The position numbers and the translations under genes are program-made. 41,738 nt of DNA from Nitrospirota bacterium (lineage in GTDB: Bacteria; Nitrospirota; Thermodesulfovibrionia; UBA6902; JAJYJJ01): positions 1 through 41,738 of the forward strand of contig JAJYJJ010000018.1 in NCBI GenBank assembly GCA_021789595.1, given 5' to 3'. The notes beneath the pieces are model-generated. The model saw only the letters and a program-made list of their open reading frames with translations, was not told where the DNA came from and did no database searches. Shown here piece after piece: positions 8,133 to 37,141 of this stretch. Within the stretch, counting starts at the first letter, position 1. Each line of letters opens with the position of its first letter.

Positions 8133-8888
8133 TTAGAAATCCCCGCCGACAAGCGTTGCTGTAACATAGCCTACCACAACCTTTGTCTGCATCTTTACCG
8201 GAAGCCTGCGGCTGTCATCCGTAAGCCAGATATACACATCGCCCTTTCGCTGGAAAAAACCCTCTGCTGATTGTAAAAGCGGTTTGACAACTATCGTATC
8301 AAACTGCCCTGCAGCAGTGGAGAGCCTCTCTTTCCTGAGCACCTGAACCTCTACCTTCCACACCTTCTTTGTATCAAACATCTCTATGTATGTCGGCCTG
8401 CCTATCTCAAGAGGCTCGGTCCTCAGCTTATAAAAGCCTGACAGCGGATCCAATACATCCCGGGGCACATCATGCTCCTCCTTCTGTCCGTTGAGGTGGT
8501 TGTAGAATATCGCCTTTCCCCTGTCCTGCTTAAAGACCACTTCCTTATTGCTCCTGTATCTGCCTTCCCTCTGTCTTATCCTGTAGTTTGATGCGCGGTT
8601 ATCTATCATAATGCTCTCTGCAAAATCCTCAACCGTGTAAAATACAGATACCCATTTTGCAGAATGCGCTGTTGATACTATATATCTTTTATCTCCGTCC
8701 TGTGTGAATTCAAGGGATGCTGTCCCTGCATTTATGCCTGTCCATGTAAGGTCATAGAGGAATTTCTCTGAACGGTTCACGGTCAACGATTCCCGTTTCC
8801 CATTTCCAGTTTCCCCGTTCCCGGATGCTGCTGTGAGGGAAAAGACAACAAGCAATAAAATGATTAATTTCCATCCCCTATGATTCAT
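8133..8888 (-). CDS. DUF3108 secreted protein
   Basis: A 251-residue exported protein with a signal peptide ending near residue 22. After a short Gly/Asn/Arg-rich stretch (23-40), the DUF3108 domain begins with EKFLYDLTWTGINAGTASLE, the typical opening strands of this beta-rich family. Features such as DPLSGFYKLRT, VEVQVLRKERLSTAAGQF and WLTDDSRRLPVKMQTKV are also characteristic. DUF3108 proteins are periplasmic or envelope proteins of unknown function, often beside LPS or outer-membrane genes. Here the neighbours are a heptosyltransferase 2 bases upstream and Ugd downstream. The stretch at residues 23-40 is encoded by a repetitive gggaaacgggaa-like DNA run (8772-8823), which may be an in-frame repeat insertion. 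Confidence 0.82.
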   Translation of the reverse strand: MNHRGWKLIILLLVVFSLTAASGNGETGNGKRESLTVNRSEKFLYDLTWTGINAGTASLEFTQDGDKRYIVSTAHSAKWVSVFYTVEDFAESIMIDNRASNYRIRQREGRYRSNKEVVFKQDRGKAIFYNHLNGQKEEHDVPRDVLDPLSGFYKLRTEPLEIGRPTYIEMFDTKKVWKVEVQVLRKERLSTAAGQFDTIVVKPLLQSAEGFFQRKGDVYIWLTDDSRRLPVKMQTKVVVGYVTATLVGGDF

Positions 8889-36030: not shown

Positions 36031-37098
36031 TTATATCCACCCCAAATCCTTTGCATTTTTTATCACGATGTCTGATAGCGCTTCTATAAACTTTGGCGAT
36101 GTATTCAGGGATTCTGTGCGTATGAGTTTTATCCCAAGCCTGTCAGCAAGCCCTTTGTATAGTATATCAATCTCATAGAGTGTTTCTATGTGGTCTGAGA
36201 CAAAACTTATTGGTACTATCAGAAGGTTTTTGACGCCTTCTCTGGCAAGTTCTTTGATTTTTTCATCTGTTGATGGTTTAAGCCACCTCACAGGGCCGCT
36301 TCTGCTCTGATAGGAAAGATGCCACTTTACAGGCATTCTCCTTGTTACCTCTTCAATCGTCCCCTGGATATGCTGCACATACGGGTCTCCCGCCTCAACA
36401 ATCCTCATAGGCAGGCTGTGGGCACTGAAAAGGACATGAATATTCAATTCTGAGTTATGGGGGTTAAGTTCTGAGGTAGTTGTGAATGATTCAAGCCCTC
36501 TTTTTATTGCATCAATGAGGACTTCGATATAAAGTGGATGGTTAAACCATGATGGAATGCAGAAGTATTTAATAGGGTATTGTTTTATTACCTCCTGGAA
36601 TCTCATGACAGAAGAGCCTGATGTTGCAAGAGAGTAATGGGGGTATAGACTAATGGCCATCAATCTATTCACTCCGTCTTTATGTATCTGTTCAACAGCA
36701 TCCTCTATCAATGGATGCCAGTATCGCATGCCAACGTAGACCTTAAACCTTGGAGTATTGGAGTGATGGAGAATTGGAGTAATGGTATCGGCTGCTTTGT
36801 TTGCTCCTTTGCTCTTTTCATCCAATACTCCAATACTCCAATTCAACATCTCCTCCAGGGCCTTTGCCTGTGCTGTTGTTATGTCAAGAATCGGGGATTT
36901 CCCGCTTATAAGCCTGTACATCTGTTCTGTCTTCTTGCTCCTGAGTGTGGATATAAGCCATGCAAGCGGCCTCTGCATGAAAGAGGGACCAAGCCTGATT
37001 ATCTGTCTGTCAGAAAAGAGATTATAGAGGAATGGCCTTACAGCCTTAAGCGAATCAGGCCCTCCGAGATTCAGGAGTATGACCCCAATGGTCTTCAT
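36031..37098 (-). CDS. hemH: Ferrochelatase with an in-frame repeat insertion
   Basis: A 355-residue enzyme that inserts ferrous iron into porphyrin. KTIGVILLNLGGPDSLKAV is the family N-terminus, MRYWHPLIEDAVEQI the substrate-side segment, SLYPHYSLATSGS holds a conserved His, and VLFSAHSLPMRIVEAGDPY the second catalytic stretch. Between KALEEML and FKVYVGM (about residues 86-118) lie about 30 extra residues, partly Ser/Asn/Lys-rich, encoded by a DNA palindrome (36750-36841). A second short extra stretch (TTSELNPHNSELN) precedes the SAHSLP motif. The frame is open throughout. Start is ambiguous: ATG 37098 matches the family, while a TTG at 37122 has the better ribosome site (AAGGA). Confidence 0.9.
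   Translation of the reverse strand: MKTIGVILLNLGGPDSLKAVRPFLYNLFSDRQIIRLGPSFMQRPLAWLISTLRSKKTEQMYRLISGKSPILDITTAQAKALEEMLNWSIGVLDEKSKGANKAADTITPILHHSNTPRFKVYVGMRYWHPLIEDAVEQIHKDGVNRLMAISLYPHYSLATSGSSVMRFQEVIKQYPIKYFCIPSWFNHPLYIEVLIDAIKRGLESFTTTSELNPHNSELNIHVLFSAHSLPMRIVEAGDPYVQHIQGTIEEVTRRMPVKWHLSYQSRSGPVRWLKPSTDEKIKELAREGVKNLLIVPISFVSDHIETLYEIDILYKGLADRLGIKLIRTESLNTSPKFIEALSDIVIKNAKDLGWI
36750..36841. repeat. Palindromic element inside the hemH coding region
   Basis: ttggagtattggagt (36750-36764) and its exact reverse complement (36827-36841) are perfect 15-bp inverted repeats, about 62 bases apart; imperfect pairing extends inward. Internal ttggagtaatgg and ccaatactcc units repeat the same theme. 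The element translates in frame as the extra segment of ferrochelatase. Confidence 0.85.
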
Positions 37099-37141
37099 GT
37101 CAGTTTTATCCAGCAATATCAATATGCGTCCTTATTACATA

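Follow-up and report, generated by a model that had tools for sequence, protein, structure and literature searches.

How did a palindrome come to lie in frame within the gene for a conserved enzyme, and is its presence there a single event? The question is raised by hemH (ferrochelatase; 36034..37122, minus strand) in the window, by which we mean the whole 41,738-nt stretch of Nitrospirota DNA that was analysed. The element (36750..36841, assigned to neither strand) is built of two arms of tandem octamers, (WTGGAGTR)n and (YACTCCAW)n, around a short spacer (36786..36818) that contains a short octamer repeat of its own (TTTGCTCC). Its left perfect inverted end, TTGGAGTATTGGAGT on the plus strand (36750..36764), is prolonged by tandem octamers to 36785, and its right one, TTGGAGTATTGGAGT on the minus strand (36827..36841), belongs to tandem octamers spanning 36819-36841. 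These are the only exact matches to TTGGAGTATTGGAGT in the window, where seven matches are found with up to three mismatches allowed vs. 1.5 ± 1.3 expected. The inverted repeat reaches 36-nt arms at 75% complementarity, and the element, as single-stranded DNA, has a folding energy of –20.8 kcal/mol (z = –5.7), which none of 200 shuffles equalled. With exact matches at both ends and this fold, the original prediction of a 92-base palindrome with perfect 15-bp inverted ends is borne out. In Rfam the element stayed below gathering score, its sole match being mir-577 (23.7 bits vs. a gathering score of 100).

That the element lies inside hemH and leaves the frame open was confirmed by the 363-codon minus-strand ORF, which has no internal stop and matches TIGR00109 at 323.8 bits in a profile search; the element occupies approximately residues 94-125. 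The coding-strand peptide of the loop, NWSIGVLDEKSKGANKAADTITPILHHSNTPR, is flanked by ALEEML and FKVYVG. This loop measures 32 residues in the window's genome, 3-13 in genomes of the class without Y1 transposases, and approximately 9 in human ferrochelatase (2qd3); the net gain is therefore about 20-28 residues. The original prediction had put the gain at about 30 residues over a usually short link; the short link does hold for distant ferrochelatases, but the net figure is lower and the loop ranges from 3 to 39 residues across close relatives, often with other repeats. A second variable loop of hemH (36446..36490, minus strand; peptide SFTTTSELNPHNSELNIHV) resembles a degraded repeat by eye, and some relatives carry repeat-like inserts of other kinds there, again by eye. 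Elsewhere in the window, a period-7 array of the same class (TTCCCGT, 4.9 copies, 8790-8823) is read in frame in the early part of a minus-strand gene of 251 codons (8133-8888), apparently directly after a signal peptide.

Further elements were present in the window's own genome (2.23 Mb; G000 hereafter), some of them within genes. The core TGGAGTNNTGGAGT occurs there at seven loci, and a reversed control sequence at none; five of the seven are in frame in conserved genes, namely hemH, queC (TIGR00364), tgt (TIGR00430, with the profile match split at the insert), a cbiG-cbiH fusion and an hpnI-like glycosyltransferase gene. Of the other two, one overlaps the end of a gene judged by eye to be endonuclease-V-like, and the second lies ahead of a response-regulator gene. 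The G000 queC shares 73% identity with its counterpart in a Nitrospirae MAG, which points to Nitrospirota as the lineage. A relative, G003, has approximately 18 loci with the core, four of them in frame, in genes that we named by eye from translations as hisC-like, pheT-like, cbiE-cbiT-like and lpxK-like. Insertion phase is uninformative in such cases because the 8-mer array passes through all three frames. Also in G003 (L074-L091), several intergenic TGGAGT palindromes are nested in ACAGAG/CTCTGTG repeats beside GCTATAAT, forming composite elements, and in the queC of G019 (L243) a TGGAGT-family arm (CTCCATCACTCCATC) occupies the second variable loop, not the queC loop used in G000.

We surveyed 59 genomes of the class for the hemH loop and for single loops of queC and tgt, chosen because G000 has elements there, and found each loop to be either short or filled, the filled ones with palindromes and 7/8-bp tandem arrays that are unrelated in sequence. 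Among 30 hemH orthologues there were 23 tandem arrays, where codon shuffling gave 0.25; almost all have a period of 7 or 8 and sit in three loops, one of which is the site of the window's element. The corresponding numbers were 46 vs. 0.0 for queC (nearly all in two loops) and 21 vs. 0.3 for tgt (nearly all in one loop). Inverted-repeat z exceeded 3 in 62% of loops of at least 15 residues, vs. 5% of control segments from the same genes. Repeat units vary between genomes, even inside one genus; families in the class include TGGAGTNN, GTCACTC/GAGTTAC and AGTTGAGA/TCTCAACT. Periods 7 and 8 also dominate the tandem repeats of approximately 400 kb of sequence from the class, and shuffled sequence has hardly any; this sample was taken around repeats or hemH, which biases density upward and leaves the choice of period unbiased. 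The hemH site is thus a hot spot and not a lone insertion: the picture of a single insertion into a fixed short link has to be given up, sister genomes having filled the same loop independently with unrelated repeat families. The idea that the segment might be an old protein feature, encoded by unrelated DNA in other ferrochelatases, received a divided answer, in that distant homologues lack the segment and in close ones the loop is occupied by another insert. A non-tandem family shows the same behaviour in Tgt, where CCCCTTT..AAAGGGG palindromes (L271, L278-L281, L284) fill the same loop in six genomes, with peptides resembling PPLPPFxKGG..PPLxKGxxGG.

Repeat families recur across unlinked loops of one genome. 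Measured by the longest common word, words of at least 11 bases were common to 8 of 62 such pairs, vs. 2.5% of between-genome pairs (P = 2e–4) and 3 of 310 control segments; an earlier threshold (13 of 62) was dropped, as control segments passed it too. The TGGAGT family occupies all three loops (hemH, queC and tgt) in G000, and the AGTTGAGA/TCTCAACT family all three in G004. Such families common to unlinked loops favour copying between loci, against purely local repeat growth. Neither 7 nor 8 is divisible by three, so that an array encodes the same cyclic peptide in whichever frame it falls, and its coding-strand arm can remain free of stops. By eye, the upstream arm of several loops appears to depart from the complement of the downstream arm at points that would otherwise give a stop, as with GAGTTAC vs. 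GAGTGAC in the queC genes of G003 and G007.

The TGGAGT palindrome is not confined to this class. Among the matches listed, it was found in full in genomes of Deltaproteobacteria, Verrucomicrobia, Kiritimatiellota, KSB1, Bacteroidales, Caldithrix, Pirellulales and Nitrospirae, and in the other phyla it is mostly intergenic: of the 102 matches listed, some of which overlap, 8 fall in long frames, vs. 59% of random positions. In one Deltaproteobacteria MAG, nine copies could be aligned through arms and spacer, with unrelated flanks. Across 79 copies there was no target site duplication of 3-5 nt (0 of 79) and no preference in element length modulo 3; of their 158 ends, few had a GTAG/CGTC tag within 12 nt (GTAG 2, CTAC 0, CGTC 1, GACG 6). 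Given the intergenic location elsewhere and the lack of a modulo-3 preference, placement in frame is best read as the outcome of selection and not as a property of the element. Four copies in the CAKZYZ01 MAG (L125, L132, L147 and L155) have a common spacer and share at least part of their flanks, constituting a longer homologous unit that bears the palindrome.

Loop filling was associated with one gene family, the Y1/HUH transposases (PF01797), which were counted in 61 genomes, mostly MAG-like and partly incomplete, so that the counts, which include fragments, are rough. G000 has eight matches; five Y1 proteins scanned from G000 and G003 had as their best match NF047646, REP-associated tyrosine transposase (RAYT), at 68-82 bits vs. 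a cut-off of 80. Palindromic loops numbered 0 of 33 in Y1-free genomes and 42 of 116 in Y1-bearing genomes, and filling correlated with Y1 gene count per genome (Spearman 0.565). With phylogenetic contrasts, an approximate test for which the tree was built from masked cores, Y1 count was correlated with filling (r = 0.404, P = 0.0014) and with loop length (0.44, P = 0.0003), while filling was uncorrelated with DDE_Tnp_1 count (r = 0.04) or genome size (r = 0.02). The loops are empty despite several Y1 genes in G013, G033, G046 and G051, and TGGAGT copy number does not track Y1 count, G004 having 17 Y1 genes and no copies. At 12 Y1 loci examined in G000 and G003 we found neither a TGGAGT element nor a comparable 7/8-mer palindrome. 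Upstream of two Y1 transposase genes in G000 (L217, L221) there are long GC-rich palindromes of unrelated sequence, REPtron- or TIRtron-like.

Several known systems invite comparison. The palindromic elements of Rickettsia and Wolbachia (RPEs) are dispersed sequences of approximately 100-150 bp, some of them in frame in unrelated conserved genes where the protein gains a surplus segment, and the mechanism of their spread is not established (PMC10969869, PMC2229807). The likeness lies in the in-frame palindrome in conserved protein genes, with five such copies in G000; the differences, with RPEs compared by description, are that the arms here are tandem 7/8-mers, that many families alternate in the same loops, and that the class belongs to Nitrospirota, with the TGGAGT family extending to several phyla and mainly intergenic there. 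The Rickettsia analogy is apt in the sense of "works like". The original prediction of a Rickettsia-like process in an unrelated lineage is upheld as regards the in-frame palindrome, in a conserved enzyme and four more genes. In-frame intragenic palindromes outside Rickettsia had also been recorded before (PMC3733652). Intragenic REPs are known in Opitutus, Xanthomonas and Thioalkalivibrio (PMC3733652), and different REPs are reported at about the same recB site in two Xanthomonas species (Di Nocera 2013, PMC3733652).

These GTAG/CGTC REPs are palindromes of many bacteria, some intragenic, and are linked to Y1/HUH transposases (PMC3733652). Like their hosts, the genomes studied here have RAYT genes; unlike them, the present elements have no GTAG/CGTC end tag (79 copies), have longer, tandem-unit arms, and were absent around the RAYT genes examined. 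We therefore did not assign them to the GTAG/CGTC REPs, with which they share the RAYT gene in the genome and not the end tag or the flanking RAYT. TAACTGA heptamer direct repeats occur in Beggiatoaceae, cyanobacteria and Bacteroidetes, mostly in intergenic positions upstream of start codons (PMC4679880), and likewise form short tandem 7-mer arrays across distant phyla; however, they are direct arrays of one unit, whereas those described here are often paired inverted arrays of many units in coding loops. MITEs resemble our elements in being small and non-autonomous with inverted ends, sometimes making in-frame gene fusions, but membership was rejected, with no target site duplication (0 of 79) and no parent insertion sequence found. 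A literature search that covered few subscription-journal papers found no description of these sequences; the element sequence matched only an iteron example from a geminivirus and one unconnected paper, both taken as chance.

We consider it probable, at roughly 60%, that REP/RPE-like selfish hairpins persist in tolerant loops, possibly moved by HUH transposases. The 92-bp element would be a non-autonomous, dispersed palindromic repeat with tandem-octamer arms, within a broad class of hairpins made from 7- or 8-bp tandem units, of which this bacterial class has many sequence families. New copies would enter at many places in the form of single-stranded hairpins and duplicate no target sequence; in genes, the only ones to survive would be those that preserve the frame, introduce no stop into it and lie in a tolerant loop exposed to solvent. 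Old copies would decay and others replace them. The correlation with gene content suggests that RAYTs may drive or enable the insertions. For the enzyme the effect is likely near neutral, an added surface loop, probably disordered. More tentative, and in our judgement falling somewhat short of an even chance, is the stronger proposal that a RAYT-dependent superfamily of 7/8-mer-armed hairpins keeps inserting and turning over in the same tolerant enzyme loops class-wide, so that how long a protein loop is, and what sequence it has, would be a side effect of the transposases a genome contains.

Dispersal might instead take another route, such as hairpin capture in break repair or a non-RAYT transposase, with shared lifestyle behind the Y1 correlation. 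The bare surroundings of the examined Y1 genes, the untagged ends and the missing target duplication are all in keeping with this; nonetheless we think it rather unlikely, as the correlation persists once phylogeny is allowed for by contrasts, as neither DDE transposases nor genome size shows one, and as a missing duplication is predicted by HUH transposition too, being expected in IS200/IS605. Somewhat less likely still is growth in situ, in which replication slippage and template switching would build arrays and snap-back palindromes locally with no mobile element. Heptamer arrays, according to work cited in PMC4679880, are in most bacterial genomes the commonest of the long simple repeats (5-11 nt), for which slippage has been suggested as the cause; units are highly diverse between genomes, and arms are homogenised separately, the tgt left unit being TGGAGCAT and the right TGGAGTGC. 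Against this, a given unit turns up in several unlinked genes of a genome, the TGGAGT palindrome is found in different phyla at sites, and between flanks, that bear no relation to one another, and slippage makes no prediction of a RAYT correlation.

Two further explanations fare worse than either of these. The insert is kept in frame in conserved enzymes, as it would be if it were a functional, selected interaction or regulatory loop encoded by a repeat by chance; we regard this as very improbable, since neither length nor sequence is conserved even in one genus, unrelated families alternate in the same loop, and the same families recur in unrelated enzymes. That the mostly MAG-like source genomes have produced an assembly artefact, or chance the pattern, is scarcely credible with the frame open throughout, the pattern recurring in three genes and across dozens of independently assembled genomes, and almost none of it in shuffles.

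Under the preferred reading of selfish hairpins in tolerant loops, the repeats form a large and apparently undescribed set that fills the same enzyme loops across a bacterial class, mostly where REP-associated (Y1/HUH) transposase genes are present. This suggests that coding palindromes, far from being a curiosity of Rickettsia and Wolbachia, can also be frequent in a different class of bacteria. Repeat families with no relation to one another are shown to end up in the same loops of proteins. RAYTs thereby offer a gene-content correlate for an old question, that of their role and of the spread of REP-like repeats, and the many host genes, together with sister genomes whose loops are empty, make it directly testable.
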